Below are positions 292 to 32,543 of a stretch of 46,041 nucleotides of DNA, in pieces (positions within the stretch are counted from its first letter, which is position 1; each line of letters begins with the position of its first letter). The stretch spans positions 302,605 to 348,645 of the forward strand of contig NW_003155237.1 in the NCBI RefSeq assembly GCF_000003605.2, in the 5' to 3' direction. The position numbers were made by a program, and so were the translations under genes. Origin of the DNA: Saccoglossus kowalevskii (taxonomy: Eukaryota > Hemichordata > Enteropneusta > Harrimaniidae). Under the pieces are notes generated by a model that was not told the DNA's origin, ran no database searches, and saw only the letters and a list, made by a program, of their open reading frames with translations.

Positions 292-3200
292 AACCAAGAA
301 GCTACAGGAGACATTGACAGCTGTGCAACAACTTGAACAGAATATGAGTAACTTACGCCAGTGGCTTGGCCACATTGAGAAAGAGATCTCAACACCAGTA
401 ATCTATGAATCATGTGATTCTGGTGAAATACAGCACAAACTGCAACAACAACAGGTAATCTTTGTTTGTGTATTTTGTGTGTTGCGTGCCTTACAACCTT
501 ATATACTGCATACAGTCATCTTTCATGGCATATACTAGTAGTTGTCCACCAACCATCTAGTTAGATTCTTATTTTTCTAAGTTTTTTTGTATTCCCATTC
601 CATGATGCCTACTAAATATGCTGGGTACACATTAATTATATTGACAGTGGTACAATTAACTTCATGAACAAACTTGATGAATAAATGAGAATGGTTTCAT
701 TAATTAGTACATGCAAGGTCAAAGTTGTGTGCTGTATAAAAATACTAGTATATTGTTCATATGTCTATTGTACAAGTATGGAACCTTTAATTTCACGTTG
801 GAATGTGCACAGAGATTTGCATGAATGGAGCACTTCACAAGTGATTCAATTCAGTCCATTTCTACATGTGACTGTGTGGTTCCTCAACATGGCTTCCCTT
901 CTTTACCCACATTTAGACATGTCTGTGTAATCCGATATTAGTATAATATCTCTGTGCCATGGCATTATCCACTAGGCATTAGAGGATATCATATAAACTG
1001 TGTTCAAGTGTACATCAATCCCACAATGACAAATTACCTTATGTAACTTATAAAACTTCTGTTTCATGTCAATTGGTGTCACATCCATTATCTTGAATTG
1101 TGCTAAATGCAATGAGACCCTAAGCTAATCGTGGAGACCTCTATGATTTTGGATTTAGCTACTTTATGTTTTTCACCAATTCATTCAAGATATGCTTGCT
1201 AATTCAGCAAAAAGTCTATTGTTGGCATGTGAGAATGAGATTCATTCACACCTCACACAGTGAAAATTATGTTGGGATATGAACAATGATTATTATCACA
1301 CTTGAACTACTCACTTAGTTACATACTAGTAATTCATATGCAATGGAGGATATTAAGAGAAGGCTGACACCTCCCCTTATCGTCCAATACCATTTACCTG
1401 TAATCTCACTTTGATTTCTCACATTTTTCACAGGAGTTGCAGAAAGACGTTGAAAGACACAGCACAGGTGTGGCTTCTGTATTAAACCTTTGTGAAGTAC
1501 TACTTCATGATTGTGATGCCTGTTCCACAGAAAGTGATTGTGAAGCTATCCAAAATGCAACTAGGACTCTTGATCACAGGTGGCGAAACATATGTGCCCT
1601 ATCCATGGAAAGGAGACTTAGGTAAATTTATTAGTTTAGTATTTTTATGTATAAACTGCAAGACCAGGGTTCTACCGAGGGCATTACAGAGAATTTACCC
1701 CTTTTACGCTGGATAATTGTATTCACAACAATGAATACAATAAATCACATTTTCATGTTATGTCATGGTTACTACTAAAAACAGTTATATGTACAGCCAT
1801 GATACTTAGGAAAAATATTGTTACTATGGTTCTTTGTAAATAATTTTCAAAACTAATGTGAATGATTTTTTTGTATCATTTTTAGTATTGAAGAAACTTG
1901 GAGGCTTTGGCAGAAGTTTTTAGATGATTACACTAAGTTTGAGGATTGGTTGGTATCAGCCGAGAGAATGGCCTCTATTCCTAACTCTTCAGATGCATCA
2001 TTTGTAGTTATAAAAGAAGAACTCAAAAGATTTGAAGTAAGTGTTGGCGGTTGGAGATTTCCCAACTTATTCGTTGTGTTTGATGTCATAGATGTATCTT
2101 TCCATATGTGTGTTCTCTAAGACTTATTTTGAAAGTTTAACCGAGCAACAAAGTCAACTCAAAGCACCATCCACAAAATCATTTTCCAACAGAAATTTTA
2201 AAAATTCCCAACTTTTTTGATCAAAAACTAGTAGCAATTTTACAATTATTCTGTTCGGCCCAAAATTAAGATTGAATTCAGTGAAAAATGTAAACAAATT
2301 GATTCCCATTTTGAGAGAGAAAAATATTTTGCGCTCAAGGGTTAAGAAATGACAGTGATAAATTGTCATTTTTTTGGGGGACCAGCCATTAAAAATTAGA
2401 ACAGTCTAAAAGTTGAATATTTAATTCCTAATAACTAAACTAATAATGTGAATCTGGTTGTCTTCTAGTCATTCCAACGTAAAGTACATGAAAACCTAGC
2501 TCAGCTAGAGATAATAAACAAGCAATACCGAAGACTTGCCAGGGAAGGCAGGACTGATAGCGGTGACAAACTGAAATCTATGGTTCATGATGTGAATAAT
2601 AGGTGGGATAACCTATCAAAGAGATGCGGAGGTGTCATCAAAAGACTTAAGTTTATGATGAATCAAAGAGACGAGTTTGAAAGCGCAAGAGAAGGATTGT
2701 TGGTCTGGTTGACTGAACTTGACCTTCAACTGACCAACGTTGAACATTTCTCAGAGTCAGATACATCAGTCAAAGTCAGACAAATGAAGGTGAGTTTTGT
2801 GAAAATTTCAATGAACCTGAAAATTTGAAATAATAAAGTGTCATTCATACCCTGTCCCCACCCTTCTAGGAGACGACATGTTCTATGTTTTTGGACAGTT
2901 GCTCACATTGAAAAAAAATACAGGCACTTGGTGTTGTCACCTAAGTACAATGCGTACAATCTTTATCATATTTTGTAGGATGACTGAGGCTTTATTTCAC
3001 ATTTTTTCTCTACTCGAAAGCTGCCAAGTTTAAATAAAACCAGAAAATCATTAAATTTTGCATGTGCTTTGATCCTTGTTGTTTATGGATGAAAGATCCC
3101 TTCCTGTAGTGTAATTTATTATTGAGAGTAATTGAACCTAATTACACCACATTACTGCATTGTTACATTGTGTGTACTTTCTCAAATACATTGTATTACA

Positions 3201-3610
3201 GGTGACTGTTGTAGTATTTCTCTATTCCAATGATTGAGGGCAGTAGCACACCAGACATATTGGAGCCATTAACATGATCAAGCTGCAAAATTTGTTGTAA
3301 ATTACAGTAAATTGGATCGTTGAAACTACTCTATCCATTTATTTTCACTGAGTTGAATGAATCCCCAACCAGTACTAAATGCATTAATTTGGTTGCTTTA
3401 CTTTTATAGGCATTTCAACATGAAATTGACTTGAACAGAACAAGGCTTGACAACGTCAACATGCTGGCTCATTCTCTGATGCAAAAGTGTGATCCTGCTG
3501 ATGCAGCATTTATACAAGAAGAACTTGATGAACTTCACAGATACTGTGATGAGGTGTACAACAGAGTGGGAAGATACCAAAAAAGATTACAAAGACTGTC
3601 ATTATCACCG
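292..3610 (+). CDS. SYNE: Nesprin exons 1-5 of window: spectrin-repeat rod
   Basis: Five exons (292-454, 1434-1621, 1886-2036, 2469-2789, 3410-3610) encode heptad-patterned helices with conserved Trp residues, for example [32 protein letters not shown] and [11 protein letters not shown]. These match the A-helix Trp and WL signatures of spectrin repeats. Two junctions split codons (after 1621, phase 2; at 292, one leading base); the others are phase 0. Introns 455-1433, 2037-2468 and 2790-3409 are AT-rich and hold no recognisable gene. Exact repeat boundaries would need profile alignment. Confidence 0.92.
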
Positions 3611-6600
3611 GTAAGATATATGGGTTCTCACTGCAGACATTGTGTTTATCACTGTCTAACCACCATCCACACACGTGCCTTCAAGTAATTAACTTTTAAC
3701 ATATTAATCATTGTAAGACCACTGTAGACTACCATTCTTTGGATAAATCTTTTCATTCTATGTATTTCCTAACACTATTGCTACAGATCTGTTCCATGAT
3801 GAGAGCAAGAGTAGGGATCAGGAACTATATTGACCTGATAGTGAGTCAGGATGTGAAGATAGTACGTATAAAATGAAGAACTCAGTATAGGGAAGAGGCA
3901 TTTATGTGCAAGATCAGGGAAAATCTAGTATTGTCAAGGGTGTCAGAGTAGGGAGTCACAGTAGAAAGTCATCTGGATTAGCTTTCTAGCTATAATTAGT
4001 CATCTCCAAATGAATACTTATAAAGGTTGCTTCTCTTCCACTTGCCCCTGCTGCATGTAGGAAGTACAACGTCAGCTAATAGCCCAAAGCTATCTGACAT
4101 GTCCTATTAGTCCGGTGAGTACTAGTGTGTAGCCTCATAGCTCTGTCTTCTGCATGCTTTTTCTCTGTACTACAGTATTGTTGATCTGTTCTATTTTATT
4201 CTATCATCTTGTGGTTGTCACATTTCCTTTAGTTCATCACTATACATTTATTTATATAATTACAATTTTATTTCTACCCTAATAAAATTTAATTCAAGGT
4301 TTTCAATATAACCATTTTTGAATTTTGTTTGTGTTTTGATAAATTATATCTTTTAAATAAACTATTTAAACATTCTCTCATCAGAGCGACAGTCTGATGT
4401 CATCATTTGATTATACGTCCAGAGAAAGTAGTCCGGCCAGGTCCAGCAAATCAAGCAGTCCCACCAGATCTAGCTTATACAGCAGATCCAGTCTTAGTCC
4501 AGGTCGTAGGACACCATCTGGCAGAAGAACGCCCTCCACATGTGACAGCGCCAGATCAGGTTCACCATTCAGGACAATGTCAGGAAGAGACACTCCAGCC
4601 AGTTTGGATTCCTTGGACTGGGATACCTATCTGATGGACACTGCGTCTATAACATCTGATCCAGAAACACGCTGGCAAGCTATGACTGAATTCAGATCTT
4701 CTGCAGTGTCTTCAGAGGGAGTCCGAAGAGCCGTGCAAGAGTGCGAGGAAAAAATTGATCAGATGGAGGCTGCTCTAGAAAGGAGAATGCCGACCGGTCC
4801 CGATGCTGAATATGAAAGAGAAGAATATGTGAGTTGGTGCTCTTTTACTGCATACTAATCAGTGTTATATCCACTATAATTATGACGTTTAAATAATATG
4901 ACAATTATAATTTTTGCAGGAGTCACTATTGGCTGACACCAAGGCTTGCATTGCCATTGTCAAAAGTCTTGCCCAGAGATTAAGAGATGATCCATCATTA
5001 ACACACCAAATAACAAGTAAGTTCATACAATTACAATATTCAGACTTTTCAATCTATTTTCTGAGAAATCTAATTTCCTCATTCAACAGCAACCTAAATG
5101 GTATACTTATCACCTTGTGTAATTGTATTTTGCATGCTTGAAATAAAAACATTTCGTATTAGAAATTTTGCATATTCTTATTTGGTTTCTATTTGTCATA
5201 TTACGATGCAAGAAAGCATTATTAGGTATGACATAAGATGTTCAATAATAATGTGTATTTTCTAGCTATTGTAAACCGATGGGAAGTGATGCAACCTGAT
5301 GTGGTTGAGAAGTATCGTAGAATGCGTAAAACACACCAAGAATGGCAGCAATTCAGAAGTGATCTCTCTAATATATGCAGCTGGTTAGATGAAGCTGAGA
5401 ACATACTTAGTTCTCAGATTGGACCTGGCGGTGATATTTACGACTTGGAATCTACTATCAGGCAACACAGGGTGAGTCATTTAAATATTTATTAGTTGTG
5501 CTCCTTAAATACACACTGCTCATATAAATTTACCCCCCTACCCCCAAAAAAACTTATCTCCCCACCACCAACCCAATAAATCATTCACAGCTATGTTCTC
5601 GGCCTTTCCTGGCAGATCATGAGATATTTACTAATCTTTCATAAGAACTGAAAAGAAACTATTTATTTATTATATTTTTGTTTTTTTTCTCAAGGAATTT
5701 TTAATGGGACTAGATGCCCGAAAAGCGATAGTGATGTCTATAAACTTATGCAGTAAGAAATTCACCTCTTCAGAAATCATGCATGGTCCTGAAATAAAAG
5801 AAAAGTTGAGCGTGATGAATCACCGATGGGAGGCTGTGTGTTCGCGAGCGACAGATTGGCAAAAAGAATTGCAGTTTCAACTTATGAGGTGTGATGAGTT
5901 CCATCAGACTACAAATGACTTACTTGGCTGGCTGCAACGAACTGAAAATGAAATGAATGATATGGAGCCTGTTGAGCTGGATATGGATCAAGATACACTG
6001 GTAGAGTGTTATCGAACATACATGGTATGTGTTACTCTATCTGACTGGGTAGCTTGATGGATTATTTTTATATTATCATACATTATTATAAATCTGATAC
6101 GATAGAAAAACAAAAGAATTCATCACAGAACAGATATAGTGCATGACGAAAATAAAACCCTGTCACTTAGTGCAAACCATCGCACAGTATGAAATGTTTC
6201 TCATTAACATTTTCGACACTTATAAGGTCATCATGAGAATGCCGCAAAATATGCGCTTTTCGGTATTATGTGAATGTATGTTCTCTACGACACATAGTTG
6301 TATATTTTGATGCAAGAAAAAGTATGAAATATTTTCTTAGATCCACTGCAACATGGTTAATGTGGTGAAAAGCTTGATTTTCTCATGAGATATTAAGTAT
6401 AAGATTATCACTCACAATACAATAAGACAGTGAAAATAACAAAGCTTGTGTTGTTATTCACAGAGAATCCGTCGAGAGCTTGAAGACTCACATCCTAGAG
6501 TGATGTCACTGAAGGAGACAGCTGATCAACTACTAGTCAATGCAGACACCAGAGAGTGGGAATTGACCAAAGATAAACTAAGTATAATTGTCAATAAAGT

Positions 6601-7578
6601 CAACTCCTTATTGAAGAGATGTCGGGACAACTTAGAATTTCTTAGCAATGTCATAGATACAGGAGAATTTGATACGGTGAGTAAAGATACTTTGAAAAGT
6701 AGAATTATAAAATTTGTGTTTTATGTCCTGGAAACATGCAGGAGATGAGAACTCAGCTGCTAGAAACCACCAAATTGTCTGAATTCCTCATCTAATCTGA
6801 TGTTATTTTGTTACAGGATGATGAGATTAGTGGTGCTATGGGAATGCCGATGGATACAATAGACGGTATGGGAGGAAGTTCACTACTACCAATGAGATCC
6901 AGTACTCCATTGCTTGGGTCAGCATTACCCAGGCATTATTCAGACATATCCACTACTACAAGGTTTGGGGAACCAGAACCAGATAGGTAATTGTTCTTAA
7001 TTTGTGCTTCAATTTTAAAATTTGGGATGGGGCAAAGCCGCATGAACAAGTACTAGAATGGTGTGTCAGTAATTGAATTTAAGTAATCTGTAAAGTGTGA
7101 CAGTATCAATAGGTTATTATAAGATAGTGCTACATCGTTTTTGCAAAGCATATTGGCAATACAGCAGTTATTGCAACACAGATTTATATCAGTACAAGTA
7201 GACTTGGTGTACTACAGTTTAGATTCTTGTGAATGTCACAAAACTAAAGATGATATGACCAAGAGTAGTATCAAGTGAAATGGGTTGTGAACACATGGTT
7301 ACTGGTACATTATCATTTTACGATACTCAGAGCTATTTCTGTCATCTTACAGAGCTGTACAGCAGCGGGGTGAAGGCGGCAACGTTCATCGTAGGTCAGC
7401 TTTCTTGGTGCGTGTTTTCAGAGCGGCGCTTCCACTGCAATTAATGATGCTGCTGCTACTTGGTGTTGCTTGTTTGGTCCCAATGACTGAAGATGATTAC
7501 AGTTGCGGACTGGCAAACAACTTTGCCAATTCCTTCCAGACTATGTTACATTATACGAATGGACCACCGCCAATTTAA
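292..7578 (+). CDS. SYNE: Nesprin (SYNE-family) KASH protein, C-terminal part, 13 exons
   Basis: Nesprins are outer-nuclear-membrane proteins that bind SUN proteins through KASH and link the nucleus to the cytoskeleton (LINC complex). Exons read from splice sites: 292-454, 1434-1621, 1886-2036, 2469-2789, 3410-3610, 4061-4114, 4385-4828, 4920-5016, 5266-5471, 5695-6024, 6464-6676, 6817-6986, 7353-7578. All junctions are GT-AG and the frame stays open throughout, giving about 920 codons to the TAA at 7576-7578. The protein is spectrin-repeat-like, with recurrent helix motifs such as [16 protein letters not shown] and MNHRWEAV plus later WL pairs. A Ser-rich linker follows, then a KASH domain. 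The first exon starts mid-codon after an acceptor, so the 5' part, including any actin-binding calponin-homology domains, lies outside the window. The gene converges on the estrogen receptor. Vertebrate SYNE1 and SYNE2 arose later by duplication, so only the family name is used. Confidence 0.96.
4061..4114 (+). CDS. SYNE: Nesprin 18-codon micro-exon
   Basis: A 54-base exon lies between a good acceptor (ending ..gcatgtag at 4060) and donor (gtgagt from 4115). It is phase 0 on both sides and encodes a segment starting [10 protein letters not shown] and ending CPISP. Its sides are symmetric, so it can be included or skipped without changing frame. It is a natural candidate for alternative splicing. 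The flanking intron pieces 3611-4060 and 4115-4384 show nothing else. Existence rests on splice-site quality and frame only. Confidence 0.7.
4385..4828 (+). CDS. SYNE: Nesprin Ser/Arg/Pro-rich linker exon
   Basis: The 148-codon exon starts with a low-complexity Ser/Arg/Pro tract of about 75 residues. It contains repeated S/T-P sites in basic context ([29 protein letters not shown]). It then returns to helical spectrin-like sequence ([29 protein letters not shown]). The tract interrupts the rod shortly before the last repeats and KASH. The S/T-P density suggests a proline-directed kinase substrate, which is inference from motif content alone. Confidence 0.93.
4920..6986 (+). CDS. SYNE: Nesprin exons encoding the last spectrin repeats and pre-KASH linker
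   Basis: Exons 4920-5016, 5266-5471, 5695-6024 and 6464-6676 give the last helical repeats ([67 protein letters not shown]). Exon 6817-6986 gives a Met/Ser/Gly-rich neck ([16 protein letters not shown]) that leads to KASH. Phases are 1 (after 5016), 0, 0, 0 and 2 (after 6986), and each is matched by the next acceptor. Introns 6025-6463 and 6987-7352 contain no other gene. Confidence 0.93.
7353..7578 (+). CDS. SYNE: Nesprin terminal exon: KASH domain
   Basis: This exon encodes a basic stretch ([15 protein letters not shown]), one transmembrane helix ([17 protein letters not shown]) and the lumenal KASH peptide. The peptide runs from [12 protein letters not shown] to [11 protein letters not shown] and the TAA. 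The final Pro-Pro-Pro-X, the YTNG motif and the Cys 23 residues before the end match vertebrate KASH peptides gap-free by recall of the family. That Cys is the one that can form a disulfide with SUN proteins. The last residue is Ile, where human nesprins have Leu or Thr. Acceptor ..cttacag ends at 7352. Confidence 0.98.
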
Positions 7579-13114: not shown

Positions 13115-13452
13115 TCACAGATTTTCGCAATTGCCACTTTGATTAGGACCCTGTGCCATGGGCTGCTCTTCACCTACTGGGTCCTGAACTGGTTTCTGTT
13201 GTCGGCTTATTAAAGTATTAGCATCCAACATTTCAAGCAATAAATCATATAAAGGAACGTTGCCTGAGTTCTTTACTTCAAATAACTGCGCAATTCCTTT
13301 ACAACTTAGATGACGGAGATGCGTTAACAACATTAAGAGTTTTGGGAGTCGCCTCGCTTCCGTGGGGTTCGAGAATTCCACAGCTTCAGTTAGTGCATCT
13401 GTCAAGTCATCTTGTAGCTTTGCTAACTGGTCTTGACTTTGTAGTTCCATAG
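13115..13452 (-). CDS. ESR: Estrogen receptor last exon: LBD helices 9-12 and tail
   Basis: Residues 491-602. It contains [20 protein letters not shown] (helices 10/11) and [18 protein letters not shown] (helix 12/AF-2, with Tyr559, Asp560 and Glu564 equivalent to human Y537, D538 and E542). Gln546 stands at human His524. The helix 8-10 segment is about 10 residues shorter than in human ER-alpha. Sequence split over two exons in human ESR1 is continuous here. A hydrophilic F-region tail ends in CENL and TGA. Confidence 0.95.
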
Positions 13453-16400
13453 CTGTAAGCAATGATTAGTAATAGTCAGTATCATATGTAAGTATGAATG
13501 CATGCTCATTGATATAGTGGACATGGTACCGTTTGATTACATATTACTTGTATAACAAAACACTGTTCTAAGTTATCATATAGGTATGATACCATAGGTG
13601 AGTACAATGAGCACTTTGATACACACTAATTTTATACAAGTCAATAAATACTGAAAATCGCTTTAATTTTGTCAGAAGTTGAAGTTCACTATTCAGAAAA
13701 ATTATGAAAAAAATGCAAAAATTATTCTAGGATACTATGAACAACTACAGACATGTTACTGGAAATCCATTGAAAATTATACCCCGGTAGCAAGAAACTG
13801 AGCCAGACAAAAGAAAAACCAATACATAATCCTCTGGCCTACAACGTTATCGAAGTCTGTGCAATTCCCAGGTCATTCGCCTGAATAAAAATGTTAAACA
13901 ACAGTGTTTTCAATAATTCAAATGGTAAAAAAGGCACAGTAGCGAAATTTTCCATCATGTAATCTCTCAAATACGTCATATGCACTACTGTATTTGCCTG
14001 CTATTTATTGAATTGTTTATTTTATTTGTAATGGAATACGATACATTCTAAAATTAAGAATTAATATAGTGACAACCAAATAATCAACAATGGCTGAAAA
14101 ATACAAGTTGTGAAGTTCGACTAGCTCACCCAAATATAGCGGGAAACTGAACTACCACGAGAATATGCAAATTCATGAAAGAACGAGAAATGCAAATTAA
14201 TCGTGTCAATAAATCATGTATAATGCTCCACATTAAGAATTCATTTATACCTGAATTGACAAGAACTAGAGCTTTGAGACAAACAAATTCTTCTAGAGTG
14301 ATACAGAGTGCAAAAAACTTATTAGCCAGGGCTGCGATGTGCTGACATAGATCAGAAAAACCAGAAGCAGCGTACTCCTCCCTGCAAAGAAGAAAATAAT
14401 CAATGATGAGATTGAAAATCAAAACTATACATACAACATTTGTATGAAACAGCTCTGGAAATACATGTACCTATTGTACAATCTGAGATTCACTGTTACA
14501 GTTGTAACATCTCCAAATAGGACGGATTATGTGTGAAAGGAAACAAGTGCAGATCAGAATTTAGATAAATTTAGTTGATGGCATGTTAATGGCTGCCAGT
14601 TGGATAAATTTCAAAATCCTTAAAAAATAACTGAAGGAAATATTCAAATCATCATGTTTGGCTTTTTTTACCAAATTTAAACCAAATCTTGAAAAAAGTG
14701 AATGTGCAAACAAACAAAATTGCTGCGAGTGACATGCATCAGTAACCCACTAGTTTGAAAGGCCTAAAATGATCGGTCAGAACAAAATCTGTGCAACATG
14801 TCCTAACAATGATGTTGGATGGATGCGTAGACTTATGCACATATGACAGGAATCAAAAACATAAGGACTATCATAAGGTCATCACAGTGCCATAAATTTC
14901 ATCTGAAGTATTTCAGTCTGACACAGTGTTGCCACACTCCTCATCCTCTTGTGCCACCCCCCTATCATTTCAATAATAATAATTCTGCAGCTGCAAAGTC
15001 ATACATCTTACCTGCCAATAGTCAAGCCTTGCGCAAAGTAAATTCTTTCGCCTTTATACTGCATGGATTTATAACATAGACTGATTAAAAGAATTTCTAG
15101 CCAGCTGTTTTCAAGCAGTCGAACCTGGTCATCAAGTTCAAGGGTAGTATAACCTACAAACAAGACAACATAATTCAATGTTAATGACAAAGTTACATTT
15201 GTAGTTTTAGTATGATATTTTAGTCAGAGTAAGTCATCCAGTCCGCCATGTTTGTCCTAGTTACATACTAATCCATGTACATGTATATTTGCTCTTCTAA
15301 AAATCACCAATTAAAGAAAAATTACATTTATTGTAAACTGTGTTGTTAAAATATGACTTATTTTGATCATAAATGCATCTTTGCTATTCAAATAAGTGCA
15401 TATGTGCTACTAAGCAAATAGGTTTAGTGAAATTTGGTGTTTACCACTTTGAGTGAAATATTACACATGTGCATAATAAAACCTTATATGGAAATTCTAC
15501 CTCCTAATAAGGAAGGGGGATAAGTGAAGAAAGAAATTCAATAACCTATGTCATAAGATAATACTCTGATCTTACCTGGGATTTGCTTTGCCCATGTAAT
15601 CACTTGTAATAGTTGTCTGTCCGCTAGTTGTATGAGTGTCTTCATAAGAAAGTTTTGTTCACTATGATCAACGTTCTCTGTGAAATGTACCTGTTCATTT
15701 TCAGCCCCTACCAATGCCAGTAGTATAGGATTACACGTTTTCCTTTTATTCGGGATACCGTTTTCACTGTATGTATTATCCTCACATGGTCTTTTGTACT
15801 TGCTTCTCCCGCCAGGTTTCCTATCTTTCCTCACTCCTTAATGTAATTTGTCGGCAAAAAAAATGACGAAGAGAATGAAAATAGGAAATCTTATTATTAG
15901 GATTTCAATACATGTTAATGAATTAAATAATTTGAAAACTAACTATAGTAACCACACAGTGACTGCAGTGCCAGGAACAGACCTGCACTATGTATGCGAA
16001 GACATAGCAGTAGTAATTACGGCAGTACCAACAACACATCTGCACTATGTGTGCAAAGAGAGCACAGTCTGTGAGAATGTTTTTGTGCTTTTCATTAATA
16101 ATAACTTTCCACACTGTTTCAAATGTTTGTTAGTTGTAAAGCTACTACAAAACCTAGTAAGCATTAAAGCTTGACAATACATTTCTAAAAACTTACCCCC
16201 TCTCATCATGCCCACGGTATAACATTTTCGAAGTCGACACGCTTGACAACTTTTCCTTCTGTGTTTATCGATTGTACATTCGTTGGTGGCAGGACATACA
16301 TACTCAGCTGAGCCTGAGAAAATTAAACATAGTACAACTATTAAAACCTTGCCCACGACTCATTTATTGGTGGCAGGACATAACCAAAGGGTATTGTTGA

Positions 16401-19400
16401 ACTGCCTAGTTCAAGGGACAAGTTACTACAATTGGGACGTGAAATCTATGAGGGTTAGTTTAAGTACAGTATTCTAAATACGAGTCTATTCAAATTTTCA
16501 AGACATCATTAAGTTTGACGTAGTTTGATTGTGACCTATCAAGACAGATCACCGCTCTTTATTTTTTAAATAAACTTTTGTTGCCTATGAATTATTATAA
16601 TCCCACAACATTATGATGTCCAAGCCACAGGCGAGTATTGTCAGTGGAACTATTGCTAAAATAACACCAAATACAAATATGTCATTGCACATGAGCTTGT
16701 CAAAATGATTTTTTTTTTTACCACAATCCGTAGTTATCGGACCATATATAACATTGGAAGTGCTGGACAACATTTAAGCATTACATACAATACAAGCAGC
16801 CCGTCGGCTGAGATAGCTCTGCTTTTAGCAATGCATATTTCAATTAAAGAACTGAAGATATCATTAGAAAAAGAACAAATCTAAGAGAGGTCTACCTGAG
16901 GTACCTATATGTATAGTATCAAAGCAATCAGACTTGCTGTTTTCAACAAGAAGTCAAAATTATCACTTTTTACCAAAAATGACAAAAATATGCATCAAAA
17001 TTGAAGATATCATCAAGAAATGAACGAATCTGAGAGGATCAACATTTAGTACCTATATATGTAATATCAAAGCAATCAGACTTGCGTCAAAAATTTTACT
17101 ATTTACCAAAAATTACAAAAATATTCATCAAAAATTGGAGAATTGAAGATATCACGAAATGAACAAATCTGAGAGAGGTCCACATGTAGTACCTATATAT
17201 ATAATATCAAAACAATCAGACTTGCGGTTTTTAACAAGAAGTCGAAAATTTCACTATTTACCAAAAATTACAAAAATATTTACAAAAAATGGAGAATTGA
17301 AGATATCATCATGAAATGAACAAATCTAAGAGAGGTCTACCCAAGGTACATATACACCAAGTATCAAGGCATTCAGACTTGTAGTTTTCAAGAAGAAGTT
17401 GAAAAAGTAAAAAGTTAACACAAATGCAGGACGACGGACAATCACGCATATGATAAGCTCCACTCGACAAAGTCGACAGCAGAGCTAAAAAGTTGACACG
17501 GACAACAGACGCAGGACAATCAGCCCTATGATAAGCTCCGCTCGACAAAGACGACAGTGGAGCTAAAAAGTTGACACAGACAACGGACGCAGGACAATTG
17601 GACAATCACCCATATGATAAGGTCTGCTCGACAAAGTCGACAGCAGAGCTAAAAAGTTGACACGGACAACAGACGCAGGACAATCAGCCCTATGATAAGC
17701 TCCGCTCGACAAAGACGACAGTGGAGCTAAAAAGTTGACACGGACAACGACGCAGGACAATTGGACAATCACCCATATGATAAGGTCTGCTCGACAAAGT
17801 CGACAGCGGAGCTAAAAAGTTGACACGGACAACGGACGCAGTACAAAATGACATTCACCCATATGATAAGCTCCGCTCGACAGCAGAGCTAAAAAAAGTT
17901 TGGCAGTATGTGACGTAACACTGAGGTGATATGCAAGGTATGCATGTGAATAATTTCCCATATTCATTCTCGTATAGATATATCTTATGATCATACATAA
18001 ATGGTGATCAAATGGTGTTTTAGACCTGTTTATCGATCATCAGATAAGAACATACCACCTCCTAAACTACTTGGTGTTTTATGTCTTAGATGAAATGTGT
18101 TATACTGAATTACAGATTAGAAACATATCTGATGGTACAGATATATTTTTTCAAAAATAGTATGGTGCCTTGTGGCAACATTGCACTCAGAAACAAAATA
18201 TACATGATATACCGTATGTACTTATTTTACAACTATATATTTAGTTTGTTTTATGTTCAATATTACAAGTGTTTGCATCATAGGGTTATAATAATAACAC
18301 CATATGGTACAAGCAAAGAAAGAAATAATACATAAACCACCCACACACATAATTTGCTCAAAATATAAAATGACTCATGAAGCAAATGTGCTACACAAAT
18401 TTTAGAAATAAAACTGAACAGGTATTTTAGTTTGATGTTGAGCTACAAGCAATTAAAGTAAAACATTTAAAACTGATCAGATGAGAAAGATTAGGTTGTA
18501 AATTTACAAATACGAATGAATATTACATACATTCAATCACACTTCACATTACCATGGTAACTGTTGAGCCAAATATGAAAAACTGAAATGACCTGATCTC
18601 ATCTAAAGAAAGTGTCACACTAATATAATTTGGATATTCACGTTTTCCTCATCCAGGAGTAAAATGTTATTATTTTATTAAAATAAATCCTGCAGTTGCA
18701 TAAACTTTTGAGTTACATGTAGGTAAGGGTAATATTTTTATGTATTTTTAAGTGTTATTTTTTTTTAACTATACGCGGAGGTGAACAGTTGGTTATGCAT
18801 TGATGTCATGACAATACCCAGAATGCCATTCTTAATTAGTCTGGTTTCAGGCCGAGTGTAAAATTACATACTATATTGATGCTAATGCCCACACACTGAA
18901 TAAATTCACAGTAATTTAACTCTATATCCCCAGGAGGTTGGTTGGGAGCCAAAACGTTGGATAGCATCTGTGTCACTGGATGTTGAGAATGGGGGCTTGA
19001 GCACGTAGTTATGAATCCTATTTTTTCATAACCTTTCCAAGATCATGTCATTGTAAATCTTATTTTTTTCATACCCTTTCCAAGATCATGTCATTGTAAA
19101 TCTTATTTTTTTCATACCCTTTCCAGGATCATGTCATTGTAAATCTTATTTTTTTCATACCCTTTCCTAGGGCAGACACACTTTTTTAAGCATTTTGTGT
19201 GAAATGATAACCAAAACATTTCGTACATATTTCCCTCCAATGGCTATTTTGCTTGCATTTAAATGAATTAATAAATAGAATTAAATTTGCATTCCATGGT
19301 AGTGAAGTCATTGCAATATCAATCTAATAGAAAACATTGATATTTCATTATATTTTTATACCCTTTTTCAGAAAATGGTTGTTTTGGTAACTATAAACAC

Positions 19401-22400
19401 ACACATCACTTATTTATAGCCCAAAAAAAACACTGTTTTTACACATTCCCTGTTCTACACACCTTTGGGCCAAGTGCAACCCCTCTACAACCCTCCTCAG
19501 TGTTCTATGTTAACTGAAAATATAGGACACTAGTGGAAAAAAACCTAAATGGTAATTTCACGTTACATTCTTCTAGTACAGTGGATTGAGTATAAAATAA
19601 CATAGTAAAACTTTTATAACCTTTCCTGAATACAGTATAAAGTACATTCAGACAATTGTATTTTTGGACAGGTTAACAGCCCCAGATTGACCCCATATAT
19701 ATTTTAGTACATGTATGTTCTGACTGGCCTACCTTGAATACTCCTTTTGAAGAATGCTTTGCAACCTTCACATGACCAGACACCATAGTGATATCCTGAA
19801 GCTAAGTCATCACAAACTGCACAATTCCGTGTAAATGCTTCCTTTGTTTTGCCAGTCTTTCCATTAGTACTGACATTAACGCTACTACTAGCAATACTAA
19901 CAGTACTATTAGTAACAGTGCTAGTTGGTTTGGTACTCATATTATGTATGCCTTCAGTGGGTTCCCGCTTTATTTCATTTGCAGGCATGGCTTCTCTGCT
20001 GGTATGTACTTCTATTTCCTTGCTCATTACAGCCTGAGAAATAGTTCTAAGTTAGGAAAAACAGAAAGAAAACACAGTCAGTAGATGAATGATTTGTTAT
20101 TCCCCTGTTTGAATGAAATTTAAAAATATGGACTTATCCTCGGGGGCGGAGCTACGTTACAGATGGTCGAGCCGGTGAAAATTCGAGAAAACAACACAAA
20201 CTCAACTTTGAAGTAATCCTGAACAACCAAATTTATATATGTTACACACGTAGGGCTAATCTTGTTACACTGTTCAGGGGACTCTCAACAAGCATCCCAA
20301 AGTACCGTTTTCTGCGAGTTTTTGGCTTTTGTCCAGTTGTCGGCCCCCGAGGATAGATTCACCTGTGTGTATCCATCTAATTACCTGGACTGATCACATT
20401 CAAATTTCATACATATATCATAATGTATAAATTCATTCATTTCACAATCAGTTTCAAGATGGTCGAATGGTGGCCATTTTCGCACAAACAATTGCATCAA
20501 AATCATTGACAAGTATTTCAGTTGTTCATACATTAACGATTGTAGAATCTAGATGCACGTTATAATATACATCTTTACATTTAAGTTTATCTGACGTATA
20601 TGCTAAGCCTTATTATCACAACATTATTCCATTCATTTTTCACTTGCATTGCTTTTTAAAAGTTCCCTTTCTATTTTATGCAGACCTTTATTTCTTGTAT
20701 ACCTTTATCTTTCATTTAATTGCTATAGCAACACACAATGGTTTGTTGACTGTGTCCCGTTAGCTTGTATCTTATAGGTTAATGATATTTAGTTTTTCCT
20801 AATACTTATTTTAACATTACCATCGAAAGTACACATTACATTTTCATGGTAGTTAAATTCTCACAAACTTTGCAAATCACATTTCGTCACAATGTAAGTC
20901 CCTATATCTCTGATAGAATCTGGAAAATAGCAATGGCTTCCTGCAGTGGCAGCATGATGCAATTGGTTTCGCTAACCTCCAATCATAATTACTATCAAGA
21001 CACAAATTGGTCCAACTAAGATAAGTCATAAGATATGTAAATATCTTGAGTACAGGGGTCAAAGATTATATTCAACTCATCAAACAAAAATATCACATTT
21101 TGCAACTTGTTGATGTATTAAAGCTACCCTCCTGGCATTTTTAAATTGGCATTTGTATTTATTCAGATTTCAACCCAAATGGTTGATGACTATAGTTTTC
21201 AAAATATTTCAGTTCATGAAATTCAAACAGTTCTAGCTATCCAAGAAAAAAATTAAATTTCTGTAAATAAAAAGAAATATTTTCTGAATTTAATTTTTAA
21301 CAGATTTTATATATCAGAATTTTTACTATGTTGTAAATTCACTTGTTTACGAAGAAAACAATACATTGTTGAAACTAGAATATTCACTGAGTTTTAATAT
21401 AGTACAATCAGCTATCTTTAATTCCTTTTGGATATTGAATACAACCAAGGCCAGTTAGGTATATTGATAGTTTGTTTGTTAATTTATTTTCACCAAGAAC
21501 AACTAAATACTAGTAGAACATAATACAAGTACATAATAAATAGCTCTATTTGAGCTAGTGAAATATTAAATTTATCACTTACTTATCCTTTCATAGATAG
21601 ATAGTTATTTCATCATTTACTCAAAATTTAGTATGAAGGGAAAAACTAACAATAAATCATTGGTCAAGAAAAAAAAAATAGACTATATATAAATCAGCAG
21701 CATTCATAGACACAATGAAGGTCATAGTAACTTTAGTAATTTACATAAAGTCACATGACAACATTCTTGTACACATCCTGGTGATGACCGCATTACCAGT
21801 TGTACTTTTGAAGGGGTCACTGAGTCTAAAACAAAATGCATCCAACCACTATACATTGTATATCTATATTACTTGAATACTGAACAAAACGAAAATTTCA
21901 TATCACTTTAATAAAAATAATGAAATGATCTCGATAAGAGTATAGATTGCAGATTATTTAAGTTTGATATCATAATATTATCACAATACACACCCATGCA
22001 ACCAAACAATCACTGAAATAAGTGACCCATGCAACCAAACAATCACCCAATCACCGTAACAAGTAACCCATGCAACGGATTTCACTCTGATTCATTGTTC
22101 GGGCATACTCATCAGTAAAGTGTCAATGACACCAAGGCCATGTTGGTCAGCATATCTTATCAACATCAATGAAACCCACCAAGGCTATAGAATTGCTAAC
22201 ACAACTCAAGGTCAAATAGGGTCATCTTAAATCAATATATAACATGTGAAAAACCTTGCTGGTTAATTGATTGCTTTATTTTTTCAGCTTGAATTAATTT
22301 TCACTACATAGGAGAGAGAATTGCAGCAGCATATTTTTAACCATGAGTACTATGCGACTGTACATTGACTATAAGATGTATAATTTACATTCATTTATTT

Positions 22401-25400: not shown

Positions 25401-28400
25401 TACATACTTGAAAATATTTAACCATGTCAGCGTGATCATATATTGTGCTATTTATAGTAACTCCATGGTTGGCATAGCTACTTATTTTGCAGTAGTCTGG
25501 AATTGGAACTATACCTTCAAGTGTTTAATAATACCTAACAGCCAAACAGTACATTTTGCCCATATGTTTCCACTTAATGGGCCACTTTTGACAATTATTT
25601 CAATTTTTGTTATTCCAAATGCATTTTTAGTTATATTATATCTTCAGTATGTCAATGGATTACATTGATCAAACAAGCAGCTTGTCAGGTGATATAGCTC
25701 CACTGTTTGTGAGGTATAGTTTGAAAGCAATCAAAAACACAGCACCAGTATTGAAGTAGTTGCATTGAAAATATGAAATGAACTCAACTGAAATAAGTCC
25801 ACCTGAGGTACCTACATATAAAATTTCAAATCAATTTAGTAATCAGTTTTTCAACAAAAGGTCAAAAATAGTATTTTTACCCAAAACAACCATTCAATAA
25901 GTTACCATCATTAAATGAACAAATCTGAAGGAGAACTTCTCAAGATACCTTCCTGAAATATTAAAGCCACACAGCTAACAGTTTTTTAAAGTTGAAGATG
26001 AAATGACGACAGACAGTAACATGAATAGCTTTGCTTGACTTAGTTGACAGGAAAGGTAAAAAGATGCTGAGAAGGGTTAAAATTATCAAAAATGGTATCG
26101 TTAATCAGCAACATAGCAATTTTGACTAACCGAGATGGCTAAAGCGGTCACTGAGATGGCTAAAGTAGTCACTGATATGGCAAAAATGTCACTGAGATGG
26201 CCATAGCAGTCACTGAGATGGCTAAAACAGGCACTGAGATGGCTAAAGCAGTCACTGAGATGGCTAAATCAGGCACTGAGATGGCCATAGCAGTCACTGA
26301 GATGGCCATAGCAGTCACTGAGATGGTTAAAGCTGTCACTGAGATGGCTAAAGCAGTCACTGAGATGGTTAACGCAGTCACTGAGATGGCCATAGCAGTC
26401 ACTGAGATGGCCATAGCAGTCACTGAGATGGTTAAAGCTGTCACTGAGATGGCTAAAGCAGTCACTGAGATGGTTAAAGCAGTCACTGAGATGGCCATAG
26501 CAGTCACTGAGATGGCTAAAGCAGTCACTGAGATGACCATAGCAGTCACTGAGATGGTTAAAGCTGTCACTGAGATGGCTAAAGCAGTCACTGAGATGGT
26601 TAAAGCAGGTACTGAGATGGCTAAAGCTGTCACTGAGATGGTTAAAGCAGTCACTGAGATGGCTAAAGCAGTCACTGAGATGGTTAAAGCAGTCACTGAG
26701 ATGTCTAAAGTAGTCACTGAGATGGTTAAAGCAGTCACTGAGATGGTTAAAGCAGTCACTGAGATGGCTGAAGCAGGTACTGAGATGGCTAAAGCAGTCA
26801 CTGAGATGGTTAAAGCAGTCACTGAGATGGTTAAAGCAGTCACTGAGATGGCTAAAGCAGTCACTGAGATGGCTGAAGCAGGTACTGAGATGGTTAAAGC
26901 AGTCACTGAGATGGTTAAAGCAGTCACTGAGATGGTTAAAGCAGTCACTGAGATGGCTAAAGCAGGCACTGAGATGGCTAAAATCGTCACTGAGATGGCT
27001 AAAGCAGTCACTGAGATGGTTAAAGCAGTCACTGAGATGGCTGAAGCAGTCACTGAGATGGCTAAAGCAGTCACTGAGATGGTTAAAGCAGTCACTGAGA
27101 TGGTTAAAGCAGTCACTGAGATGGCTAAAGTCGTTACTGAGATGGCTAAAGCTGTCACTGAAATGGCTAAAGCAGGCACTGAGATGGCTAAAATCGTCAC
27201 TGAGATGGTTAAAGCAGTCACTGAGATGGCTGAAGCAGTCACTGAGATGGCTAAAGCTGTCACTGAGATGGCTAAAGTCGTCACTGAGATGGCTAAAGTC
27301 GTCACTGAGATGGCTAAAGCAGTCACTGAGATGGCTAAAGTCGTCACTGAGATGGCTAAAGCAGTCACTGAGATGGCTAAAGCAGTCACTGAGATGGCTA
27401 AAGCTGTCACTAAGATGGCTGAAGCAGTCACTGAGATGGCTAAAACAGTCACTGAAATGGCTAAAATTGTTACTGAGATGGTTAAAGCAGTCACTGAGAT
27501 GGTTAAAGCAGTCACTGAGATGGCTAAAGCTGTCACTAAGATGGCTGAAGCAGTCACTGAGATGGCTAAAGCAGTCACTGAGATGGCTAAAGCAGTCACC
27601 GAGTTGGCTAAAGCAGTCACTGAGTTGGCTAAAGTCGTCACTGAGATGGCTAAAGCAGTCACTGAGATGGCTAAAGCAGGCACTGAGATGGCTAAAATCG
27701 TCACCGAGATGGCTAAAGCAGTCACTGAGATGGTTAAAGCAGTCACTGAGATGGCTGAAGCAGTCACTGAGATGGCTAAAGCTGTCACTGAGATGGCTAA
27801 ATTCGTCACTGAGATGGCTAAAGTCGTCACTGAGATGGCTAAAGCAGTCACTGAGATGGCTAAAGTCATCACTGAGATGGCTAAAGCAGTCACTGAGATG
27901 GCTAAAGCAGTCACTGAGATGGCTGAAGCAGTCACTGAGATGGCTAAAGCAGTCACTGAGATGGCTAAAGCAGTCACTGAGATGGTTAAAGCAGTCACTG
28001 AGATGGCTGAAGCAGTCACTGAGATGGCTAAAGCTGTCACTGAGATGGCTAAAGCAGGCACAGATGGCTAAAGGCGTCACTGAGATGGCTAAAATCGTTA
28101 CTGAGATGGCTAAAGCAGGCACTGAGATGGCTAAAGTCGTCACTGAGATGGCTAAAGCAGTCACTGAGATGGCTAAAGCAGTCACTGATATGGCTAAAGC
28201 AGTCACTGAGATGGCTAAAGCAGTCACTGAGATGGCTAAAGCAGTCACTGAGATGGCTAAAGCAGTCACTGAGATGGCTAAAGCAGTCACTGAGATGGCT
28301 AAAGCAGTCACTGAGATGGCTTAACAGTCACTGAGATGGTTAAAGCAGTCACTGAGTTGGCTAAAGCAGTCACTGAGATGGCTAAAGTCGTCACTGAGAT

Positions 28401-31400: not shown

Positions 31401-32543
31401 TTTTACCAAAAATCATCAAAATATTCATCAAAATTAGAGAATTGAAGATATCATCACGAAATTAACAAATCTGAGAGAGGTCCACATATAGTACCTATAT
31501 ATGTAATATCAAAGTAATCAGACTTACGTTTTTTAACAAGAAGTCGAAAATATAACTTTTTACTAAAAATGACAACAATATTTATCAAAATTAGAGAATT
31601 ACAGATTACAGATATCATCACGAAATGAACAAATCTGAGAGAGGTCCACATGTAGTACATATATATGTAATATCAAAGCAATTGGACTTGCGGTTTTTAA
31701 CAAGAAGTCGAAAATATCACTTTTTACCAAAAATCAGAAAAATATTCACCAAAAATAGAGAATTTGAGATTTTGACATGAAATGAACAAATCTGAGAAAG
31801 AACCATCCAAGGTACTTGCATATCAAATTTGAGAGAGTTGAAATTGGAAAGTTGACGACGCCGGACAATCAGTAATATGAACAGCTCTGCTGATATGATA
31901 TGATATGATATGGTATCACAGATGACGCATTTGATATCCCTTGTGTTCTGTAGTGTAATGTCAACAAGATATGAAATCATACTTACTGAGTGTACTCTTC
32001 ACCCATTGGTTGGTATGCAGTAACTAATGGCGCCATATGAACTAACTGCTTTCTATCCCCTTGTGGCAGGCTACCAAATACATCTATTTCCTGTTTCGAA
32101 GCACATGGCATTTGTGGCTTTCTAACATCACTGATGAATAGGGTAGAAATGTTTTTCATTTGTGTATCGCTGTTTATTGTTGAGCTCAAGGGCTGATATT
32201 CGGCAATGAATGGCGATGGTTCTGATAGTGGTAGCGATGTCGGCGGTGGTGGTGGTGGTGCCACTGAGGGCATCTGCGCTGATGTTGAAGGCTGTGGTGG
32301 GGGAGTCACTGTCCATTCTGAAGGCTGTAAGTCATCGTCAATGCTCGCACGCTCTAAGAGTCTGTGTTTCAAACTAGCAATCTTTACAGGTTTTTGTGAT
32401 GGTTGCGTCTTATAAATTAATGTAGGTACTTCATTATTGCCAGACATTTGGTTGTTGCTTTGAGTAAAACCTTCAGGTGCAAAGTCGTTCATGATAGCAT
32501 TAAATGGACATGTTGAATAGTGTGGTATTTACAAGATGGTCAC
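13115..32543 (-). CDS. ESR: Estrogen receptor (nuclear receptor NR3A), complete coding region, 7 coding exons
   Basis: Ligand-type nuclear receptor acting as a DNA-binding transcription factor. Coding exons (minus strand): 32492-31987, 20046-19733, 16313-16197, 15836-15576, 15153-15012, 14381-14251, 13452-13115. Together they make 1809 nt, 602 codons plus TGA, with the frame kept at every GT-AG junction. Residues 1-243 are a Pro/Ser-rich A/B region, 244-312 the two-zinc-finger DBD, 313-350 a basic hinge, and about 360-571 the ligand-binding domain ending in the AF-2 helix. The P-box reads CEGCKA, the ER/ERR type. The second finger is [20 protein letters not shown], near-identical to vertebrate ER as recalled. 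The LBD matches ER rather than ERR ([38 protein letters not shown]). Estradiol-contact residues are changed: Gln387, Lys428 and Gln546 for E353, R394 and H524. Exon 1 continues 5' to an acceptor at 32544, so an upstream noncoding exon exists. Confidence 0.96.
14251..14381 (-). CDS. ESR: Estrogen receptor exon 6: LBD helices 7-8
   Basis: Residues 447-490. It opens with [16 protein letters not shown] (diverged helix 7) and ends with the conserved [15 protein letters not shown]. The acceptor is ctttgcag ending at 14382. The donor GTATAA at 14250 is phase 1, at the same position as the human intron after LLNSG. Confidence 0.94.
15012..15153 (-). CDS. ESR: Estrogen receptor exon 5: LBD helices 4-5 and beta hairpin
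   Basis: Residues 400-446. [19 protein letters not shown] is the nuclear-receptor signature region. The following ISLCYKSM places Lys428 at human Arg394 and Tyr427 at Trp393. The beta hairpin ([10 protein letters not shown]) is one residue longer than human ER-alpha, consistent with an exon of 142 rather than about 139 bases. The exon ends in phase 2 (AG|G, Arg447). Confidence 0.95.
15576..15836 (-). CDS. ESR: Estrogen receptor exon 4: hinge and LBD helices 1-3
   Basis: Residues 313-399. It begins [16 protein letters not shown], a basic C-terminal extension and likely nuclear localisation signal, followed by a shorter hinge than in vertebrates. Helix 3 reads [20 protein letters not shown]. 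The residue equivalent to human Glu353 is Gln387, and Thr347 is Ile381. Asp351 (Asp385) and the AF-2 charge-clamp Lys362 (Lys396) are kept. Confidence 0.95.
15958..16075. repeat. Two-copy 57-bp tandem duplication in receptor intron 3
   Basis: GACTGCAGTGCCAGGAACAG and ACGGCAGTACCAACAACACA begin two diverged copies about 57 bp apart. Both contain CTGCACTATGT(A/G)TGC. The period is a multiple of three, so the plus frame stays open, but it lies inside an intron of the opposite-strand gene. Confidence 0.6.
16197..16313 (-). CDS. ESR: Estrogen receptor exon 3: second zinc finger
   Basis: 117 bases, the length recalled for the human ESR1 exon. It encodes [18 protein letters not shown] through [14 protein letters not shown], carrying the four zinc cysteines and the D-box. 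Acceptor tttctcag ends at 16314; donor GTAAGT begins at 16196. Phase is 1 on both sides. Confidence 0.97.
16367..16389 (-). pseudogene. Partial duplicate of receptor DBD exon 3 sequence in the preceding intron
   Basis: TTGGTGGCAGGACATA occurs identically in exon 3 (16283-16298, coding the VCPATN motif) and in the intron 84 bp away (16367-16382). Similarity extends a few bases leftward with two mismatches (ATT on both sides of the changed pair). There are no matching splice sites, so it cannot be an exon as it stands. It may be a decayed local duplication or chance. Confidence 0.4.
16801..17400. repeat. Dispersed repeat, tandem segment with period near 148 bp, copy 1
   Basis: AGATATCA(T/C) landmarks at 16856, 17005, 17147 and 17301 are 149, 142 and 154 bp apart. 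Each is followed by GAACAAATCTGAGAGAGGTC, ACCTATATATGTAATATCAA and ACAAGAAGTC-type blocks. The start carries AGCTCTGCTTTTAGCAATGC. Related copies lie at 25681-26062, 30464-30865 and 31292-31900. No coding capacity is seen. Confidence 0.75.
17410..17900. repeat. Hairpin-containing tandem repeats at the end of the dispersed element
   Basis: Six copies of a 75-90 bp unit. Each contains a self-complementary core of the form GCTCCGCTCGACAAAGTCGA followed by CAGCGGAGC, which folds into a stem around GTCGA, then TAAAAAGTTGACACGGACAA. Copies alternate in two subtypes (AATCACCCATATGATAAGGT and AATCAGCCCTATGATAAGCT), giving a dimer period near 165-170 bp. Confidence 0.75.
17901..19016. other. ESR: Receptor intron 2, remaining part
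   Basis: AT-rich intron sequence between the repeats. Short frames are present, but no family, splice context or RNA gene is recognised. Confidence 0.5.
19017..19175. repeat. 43-bp tandem repeat, about 3.6 copies
   Basis: The unit TTTTTTCATACCCTTTCCAA followed by GATCATGTCATTGTAAATCT is repeated almost identically three times, then partly. The high identity between copies indicates recent expansion. It lies in receptor intron 2, upstream of exon 3. Confidence 0.85.
19733..20046 (-). CDS. ESR: Estrogen receptor exon 2: end of A/B region and first zinc finger
   Basis: It encodes residues 169-273. A Ser/Thr/Asn-rich tract precedes the first finger, [18 protein letters not shown] then [12 protein letters not shown]. 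The P-box is identical to vertebrate ER as recalled, predicting AGGTCA half-site recognition. The segment EIKREPTE contains a psi-K-x-E motif (Lys195) of the SUMO-acceptor type common in nuclear-receptor N-termini; use is inferred. The donor after SIQ|G is GTAGGC, phase 1, the same position as the human intron. Confidence 0.96.
20135..20355. mobile_element. MITE with perfect 13-bp TATCCTCGGGGGC inverted ends
   Basis: TATCCTCGGGGGC (20135-20147) and GCCCCCGAGGATA (20343-20355) are exact inverted repeats bounding 221 bp that is more GC-rich than its surroundings. The outer TA on both sides would fit a TA target duplication. It sits in the first coding intron, 89 bp before the exon 2 acceptor. 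Confidence 0.75.
22206..22224 (+). promoter_or_regulatory. Candidate nuclear-receptor site: TCAAGGTCA with DR4 partner
   Basis: TCAAGGTCA (22206-22214), the extended half-site bound by ERR and SF-1 type receptors, is followed by AATA and GGGTCA (22219-22224). This forms a direct repeat with 4-bp spacing. Motif match only. Confidence 0.25.
23612..23629 (+). promoter_or_regulatory. Candidate estrogen-response-element-like site in the receptor's own intron
   Basis: TCAAGGTCA (23612-23620) continues as AGGTCAAGCTGACAC (23615-23629). One half-site is perfect, then a 3-bp spacer, then TGAC matching four of six bases of the inverted half-site. This is the ERE layout. The P-box of the encoded receptor predicts such recognition. 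Chance occurrence cannot be excluded. Confidence 0.3.
25681..26062. repeat. Dispersed repeat, copy 2 (diverged)
   Basis: It shares blocks with 16801-17900: CTTGTCAGGTGATATAGCTC at the left, CACCTGAGGTACCTACATAT in the middle, and GCTTTGCTTGACTTAGTTGA at the right with AGGTAAAAAG after it. It directly precedes the 21-bp array. Confidence 0.6.
26131..28745. repeat. 21-bp minisatellite array, about 124 units
   Basis: The plus-strand unit is ATGGCTAAAGCAGTCACTGAG, repeated for 2.6 kb with substitutions (GTTAAA, GCCATA, GCTGTC, GTCGTC, GCAGGC) and rare 1-2 base deletions (near 26176, 28060, 28320 and 28718). The period is 7 codons and the unit lacks stops in several frames, so frames of over 600 codons stay open on both strands (MAKAVTE on plus, LAISVTA and CFSHLSD on minus). 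Higher-order structure is visible. A 105-bp five-unit block starts at 26281, 26386 and 26491. A GCAGGC/ATCGTC pair recurs at 26953, 27163 and 27667 (10 and 24 units apart). A 19-unit segment ending in a GCTTAACAG variant repeats at 28316 and 28714. It lies in intron 1 of the estrogen receptor. Confidence 0.95.
28746..30463. other. ESR: Receptor intron 1, part between repeats
   Basis: AT-rich with A and T runs (28940s, 29470s). Nothing recognisable as gene or RNA. A 105-codon open frame at 29965-30282 has no visible family. Confidence 0.5.
30464..30865. repeat. Dispersed repeat, copy 3
   Basis: It begins AATGCACATTTCAATTAAAG, runs through CTGAGAGAGGTCTACCTGAG and GTCCACATGTAGTACCCATA, and ends GACAGCAGAGCTAAAAA. 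The order and spacing are as in copy 1, with fewer internal units. Confidence 0.75.
31292..31915. repeat. Dispersed repeat, copy 4, with ATATG microsatellite end
   Basis: It begins AGCTCCGCTGCTAGCAATGC, carries three to four 148-bp-type units (GAAATGAACAAATCTGAGAG, GTCCACATGTAGTACATATA) and ends GAACAGCTCTGCTGATATGA. A (GATAT)n run of about 20 bp follows. It lies just downstream of receptor coding exon 1. Left and right ends are inverted (AGCTC(C/T)GCT and its complement). Confidence 0.75.
31987..32543 (-). CDS. ESR: Estrogen receptor first coding exon: A/B (AF-1) region
   Basis: The chosen start ATG is at 32492. It encodes 168 residues plus two bases ([11 protein letters not shown]... to GEEYT and a split Gln codon). 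Low-complexity PPPQPS and APPPPPPTS stretches fit an unstructured activation region. An acceptor (T-rich, ctgcag) ends at 32544, so 32493-32543 is 5' UTR in this exon. The donor is CA|GTAAGT with the intron starting at 31986. Phase 2 is completed only by the acceptor at 20047, not by the more obvious AG ten bases downstream, which would bring in a stop. Confidence 0.85.

Follow-up and report, generated by a model that had tools for sequence, protein, structure and literature searches.

A hemichordate estrogen receptor with all three polar estradiol contacts replaced

Locus and gene structure

The window, i.e. the whole stretch of 46,041 nucleotides of Saccoglossus kowalevskii DNA that was analysed (contig NW_003155237.1, positions 302,605 to 348,645), harbors on its minus strand an estrogen receptor (ER, NR3A) gene at 32492-13115. 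Translation and splicing of seven coding exons gave an uninterrupted protein of 602 amino acids; all six introns are of the GT-AG type and all exon joins are in frame. The first coding exon (31987..32492, minus strand; MNDFAPEG...EEYTQ) would encode part of the A/B domain and ends at the donor GTAAGT, its frame continuing into the exon at 20046. This exon and the first intron of 12 kb are predicted from splice signals and reading frame, and a search of the A/B region in NCBIfam, a prokaryote-oriented library, gave no match. The rest of the A/B region and the first zinc finger are encoded at 19733..20046, and the second zinc finger, read in the spliced frame, at 16197..16313. The ligand-binding domain (LBD) follows on the same strand, with the hinge and the first LBD part through helix 3 at 15576..15836, helix 5 at 15012..15153, sites 421-428 (human ER-alpha numbering, MAFFT alignment) at 14251..14381, and the end of the domain with helix 12 in the last exon (13115..13452, stop codon 13117-13115). 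The sequence-only reading had assigned the receptor to 13115-16313; this span does contain the second exon of the DNA-binding domain (DBD) and the LBD exons, whereas the first DBD exon (20046-19733) and the A/B exon (32492-31987) lie outside it.

Downstream of the receptor gene, in tail-to-tail arrangement, lies the 3' part of a nesprin (SYNE-like) gene on the plus strand (2469-7575), recognized by spectrin-repeat matches and by a KASH domain ending in NGPPPI (7402..7575, Pfam KASH 9.7e-28). One of its spectrin repeats scored above the Pfam cut-off (5638-6057), the others being weaker. Human ESR1/SYNE1 and ESR2/SYNE2 are likewise convergent pairs, and the same layout in the hemichordate supports ER orthology. 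Upstream of the ER and in the same orientation, outside the window, an estrogen-related receptor gene (ERR; L010, C4441:358300-362900) is the tandem neighbour, and the ER/ERR tandem could be left over from the duplication in which both genes arose. A run of Ns (C4441, 348646-357832) begins at the right edge of the window and adjoins the ERR gene, of which the LBD presumably falls within this run.

Several repeats were seen in the window. Intron 1 of the ER gene contains a 21-bp minisatellite (26132-28745, 124.7 copies), and because of this array both strands show spurious open frames, 500-680 codons long, in several reading frames. Two further arrays, made of tandem repeats of 140-164 bp that look alike (16848-17405 and 31397-31764), lie within ER introns and flank the first zinc-finger exon. 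Broken open frames on the plus strand at 42502-44127 appear by eye to be the remains of a LINE-type element and gave no Pfam match.

In the mitochondrial contig of the same assembly (C4830; L073, L074; 17,037 bp), most of the other coding genes that were read lie on one strand and COX1 on the other; ND5 and CYTB are adjacent, with a putative ND6 frame beyond CYTB on the other strand (genes named by eye). When COX1 was aligned to the best matching PDB COX1, five of its nine ATA codons faced Ile, two Val, one Leu and one Met, for which reason ATA most likely encodes Ile. The single AAA in the aligned COX1 stretch falls on a conserved Lys, and in CYTB an AGA occupies a position that usually holds Ser. 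According to PMC2697986, ATA for Ile is found in echinoderms and hemichordates, AAA for Asn is specific to echinoderms, and the nd5-cob adjacency is shared by hemichordates and Xenoturbella, the latter without ATA for Ile. The mitochondrial features of this assembly thus indicate a hemichordate.

Assignment to the estrogen receptors

For Pfam and PDB searches a version of 427 amino acids without the A/B exon was used as query. It matched Pfam zf-C4 over both fingers (4.9e-31) and Hormone_recep (3e-29), and the whole query matched the ER DBD structure 1hcq at 1.5e-43. The DBD consists of two zinc fingers with the ER P-box CEGCKA; the NR3C ketosteroid receptors have a GSCKV P-box, whereas the hemichordate gene has EGCKA at this position. 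In the PDB search with the 427-residue query, ER chains are outranked first by chains of RXR and RAR and next by those of GR and NR4A2, probably because these higher-ranking chains hold both domains. With the LBD alone as query (HMMER), the best 60 of the 658 matching sequences were all named estrogen or estradiol receptors (top E-value 2.3e-42). MAFFT alignment of the LBD with human ER-alpha gave 82 identities over 197 aligned residues; a published table lists 33% for the oyster ER and 25% for the rotifer ER, values obtained by another method than ours (PMC5336670).

Further steroid receptors were sought in the assembly of 572 Mb, which comprises 4830 contigs with N runs. The DBD search returned at least 40 matches, all located in the 33 loci that were examined or corresponding to ER and ERR exons, and yielded one ER and one ERR. 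A first finger is visible in 25 of the 33 loci and in none of these 25 does it show GSC; locus L077 enters Ns directly after CEGC. Eight loci show the second finger only, and in L058, which has no visible first-finger exon, the exon boundary is unlike that of ER and ERR. Searching with the ER protein gave at least 56 matches, and those to LBDs outside the ER and ERR genes were 23-36% identical. Five LBD loci were selected for closer inspection; reading by eye of L020, L026, L027 and L036 revealed nothing ER- or NR3C-like, and in L031 the longest frames consist only of Ns. Thus, among the best DBD and ER-protein matches of this gapped assembly there was neither a second ER or an NR3C-type receptor with a GSCKV P-box nor a paralogue resembling the amphioxus steroid receptor (SR). 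A second DBD on the contig of the ER gene (C4441:362319, 358876) was considered as an ER duplicate and rejected; it belongs to the ERR gene, has the P-box EACKA and finds its best PDB match in the ERR-gamma DBD (7.7e-49). The gene described here is an NR3A estrogen receptor and the sole ER found in the assembly; the presence of one ER and one ERR agrees with what a review says of the genomes of invertebrate deuterostomes (PMC7827873).

Ligand-contact residues and receptor surfaces

In human ER-alpha the A-ring hydroxyl of estradiol is held by E353 and R394 and the D-ring hydroxyl by H524. The same residues are named in PMC4198987, where a water completes the set around the phenolic A-ring. Both HMMER alignment to PDB estrogen receptors and MAFFT alignment to human ER-alpha place Gln387 (codon CAA, 15615-15613), Lys428 (AAA, 15070-15068) and Gln546 (CAG, 13288-13286), all encoded on the minus strand, at E353, R394 and H524, respectively. 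They also agree in placing Ile381 (ATA, 15633-15631, minus strand) at T347. These assignments had been made in the sequence-only reading and are confirmed here, as is its statement that the alignment around each contact site is largely gapless; we find no gap around any of them, the indels falling between the sites. The stretch from site 394 to site 421 contains an insertion of a single residue in front of F404 and a deletion at 415, and the stretch from the NSG/NSA motif to SHIRH/THLRH has two deletions, of nine and three residues. That an alignment might instead map the acidic, basic and His contacts onto other conserved residues, a possibility raised at the time, was not borne out by either method. 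The E353, R394 and H524 set that marks an estradiol receptor is therefore absent, with Q387, K428 and Q546 in its place.

The pocket as a whole was compared over 18 positions (346, 347, 349, 350, 353, 383, 384, 387, 388, 391, 394, 404, 421, 424, 428, 521, 524 and 525), a set taken to represent the ER-alpha pocket. In the MAFFT alignment ten of the 18 are identical to human ER-alpha and eight differ (T347I, E353Q, M388L, R394K, M421F, I424L, L428I and H524Q), so that all three polar anchors are changed and, of the other 15 positions, five (T347I, M388L, M421F, I424L and L428I). The three anchor replacements, Gln, Lys and Gln, all remain polar. F404 is retained if the one-residue insertion is accepted, and is Tyr on a gapless reading. 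Outside this set, F425, which is described as conserved in PMC3886901, is Cys in the hemichordate protein. M421F and F425C probably alter the pocket; its hydrophobic part looks largely preserved, and the cavity would be open. Since Gln, Lys and Gln can still form hydrogen bonds and ten of the 15 other pocket residues are kept, estradiol or another aromatic steroid might still be bound. We consider this improbable: the phenol would no longer find its carboxylate partner, and amphioxus SR lost its transcriptional capacity when R394C was introduced together with F404L (PMC2527136). Estradiol is thus not expected to be bound at physiological affinity.

The surfaces that would contact DNA and coactivators look conserved. 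Of the coactivator-surface residues that were checked, ten out of 11 are identical to human ER-alpha in the MAFFT alignment, the exception being Tyr for F367. D351, L536, Y537 and L540 are unchanged, and the charge clamp, K362 (Lys396, codon AAG, 15588-15586, minus strand) and E542 (Glu564, GAA, 13234-13232, minus strand), as well as the helix 12 core are identical. Together with the ER P-box, this upholds the earlier view that the DBD, the charge clamp and the helix 12 core are preserved. The DBD, helix 12 and the coactivator groove seem to be in working order, and the receptor would be expected to bind both DNA and coactivators. A gene degenerating toward loss is very hard to reconcile with this picture, even if loss of the ER is reported in the sea urchin and tunicate lineages (PMC2527136, PMC2529310), given 602 open codons, intact splice sites throughout, an LBD with 82 of 197 residues as in human ER-alpha and an identical helix 12 core. 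The argument that a joint change of E353 and R394 beside an intact helix 12 speaks against simple decay appears reasonable, and the open frame and intact splice sites lend it support.

Comparison with other estrogen receptors

The hemichordate receptor resembles vertebrate ER-alpha and ER-beta (NR3A1/2) in the DBD, P-box, charge clamp, helix 12 core, most of the pocket lining and the nesprin neighbour. It differs from them by Gln, Lys, Gln and Ile at E353, R394, H524 and T347, respectively, and by changes at M388, M421, I424, F425 and L428.

The ER of amphioxus (Branchiostoma floridae) is likewise an NR3A receptor of an invertebrate deuterostome in which the R394 contact is lost. It keeps Glu at 353 and His at 524, has Cys at 394 and carries Asp at position 542 of the charge clamp (PMC2529310). 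The R394C change is accompanied by F404L, and 11 of 18 pocket residues differ from human (PMC2527136). The hemichordate protein, in contrast, has all three contacts changed and retains F404 and E542; the amphioxus loss states R394C and F404L are absent, the residues being K394 and F404 (with the one-residue gap; Tyr if gapless). Amphioxus ER is a repressor that acts on the paralogous estrogen-activated SR (PMC2527136). By analogy, the hemichordate receptor could be a transcriptionally silent competitor for DNA sites, as its DBD is intact and the amphioxus repressor has lost the same arginine. We regard this as unlikely, because the amphioxus repressor acts on an SR paralogue of which our searches of the assembly returned no counterpart, and because position 542 of the clamp is the canonical Glu and not Asp as in amphioxus ER.

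The mollusc receptors offer a second comparison. Oyster CgER (PDB entry 4n1y) is, like the hemichordate protein, an ER orthologue changed at site 524. With the oyster residues as given in PMC3886901, mollusc ERs are constitutive through l536F combined with a415W or h524F/Y, and F525 is also present and occludes the pocket, so that the mollusc pocket is filled by F/Y524 and F525 in addition to the changes W415 and F536. None of these four determinants occurs in the hemichordate receptor, which has a gap at 415, Q524, L525 and L536. According to the same source, constitutive activity and the loss of ligand response evolved together in molluscs, and the helix 12 core, L536-Y537-D538 and the charge clamp are all kept here. 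A ligand-independent activator, held in the active conformation as in molluscs by a different set of residues, is for these reasons the main rival to a ligand-gated receptor. With no molluscan determinant present and a pocket lining that appears largely unchanged, we hold it to be credible and yet doubtful. As neither the amphioxus nor the mollusc states are present, the hemichordate receptor represents a third pattern, in which the pocket lining is mostly kept and each polar anchor has given way to a different polar residue.

Proposed ligand recognition

Since the ER P-box, the coactivator surface and helix 12 are kept while the three polar contacts are replaced in an open reading frame, the proposal of the sequence-only reading that canonical estrogen recognition has been lost is likely to be correct. 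Either constitutive activity or an alternative ligand would be compatible with such a receptor. We favour a working receptor that no longer recognizes estradiol in the canonical manner, with an open pocket and gating by another hydrophobic ligand, to which we give a probability of about 50%. The choice of a ligand other than estradiol over ligand independence is based on the chemistry of the amide/base pair and on two precedents, the ketosteroid receptors and RXR.

The acid/base pair E353/R394 at the A-ring end has become an amide/base pair, Gln/Lys, and the His at the D-ring end a Gln. Exchange of a carboxylate for an amide, with a basic residue kept, would convert an acceptor for a phenol into a site that favours a hydrogen-bond acceptor or an acid. 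The vertebrate 3-ketosteroid receptors (NR3C) have Gln at 353 and Arg at 394. The hemichordate ER shares this Gln, whereas it has Lys instead of Arg at 394 and EGCKA instead of the GSCKV P-box.

The second precedent emerged from the PDB alignment of the 427-residue query, in which Q387 is aligned with chain position 280 and K428 with chain position 321 of RXR-alpha (3dzu_A). These correspond to Gln275 and Arg316, the offset of five being based on an RXR length of 462. Both residues are reported to hold the ligand carboxylate (PMC6410278), and Arg316 is named in this role in PMC4451509 as well. The two pockets would thus be alike in an aligned Gln on helix 3 and a basic residue on helix 5. RXR-alpha belongs to another family and has Arg316 where this ER has Lys; the parallel is one of position and chemistry as judged from the alignment. 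No precedent for Lys at site 394 was found in the accessible parts of the open literature searched.

Gln387 and Lys428 may hold a ligand in the way that RXR Gln275 and Arg316 hold a carboxylate. The ligand would be hydrophobic, and the group that it presents to the helix 3/helix 5 end of the pocket would be a hydrogen-bond acceptor or an acid (3-keto, sulfate or carboxylate). Tentatively, and with a good deal of doubt, we suggest that the A-ring end has re-evolved an RXR-like Gln/basic pair and that the receptor is gated by an acidic or 3-oxo lipid rather than by a phenolic steroid. The same residues could also arise in a pocket that is no longer used and has come under relaxed constraint.

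Implications for estrogen receptor evolution

Whether or not the ligand of the ancestral estrogen receptor was an estrogen is disputed. Estradiol is not bound by the ERs of amphioxus (PMC2529310) and molluscs (PMC3886901), and binding is reported for annelid ERs (PMC7827873) and, with reference to PMC5336670, for the rotifer ER. The ER is reported to be lacking in both sea urchin and Ciona (PMC2527136), which makes a hemichordate ER a rare data point; no description of the ligand-contact residues of such a receptor was found in the accessible parts of the open-access literature searched. The pocket described here differs from both described non-binding types, those of amphioxus and of molluscs. 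If the suggested gating by an acidic or 3-oxo lipid is true, amphioxus ER and the Saccoglossus receptor would be two invertebrate deuterostome ERs that have left canonical estradiol recognition by different routes.
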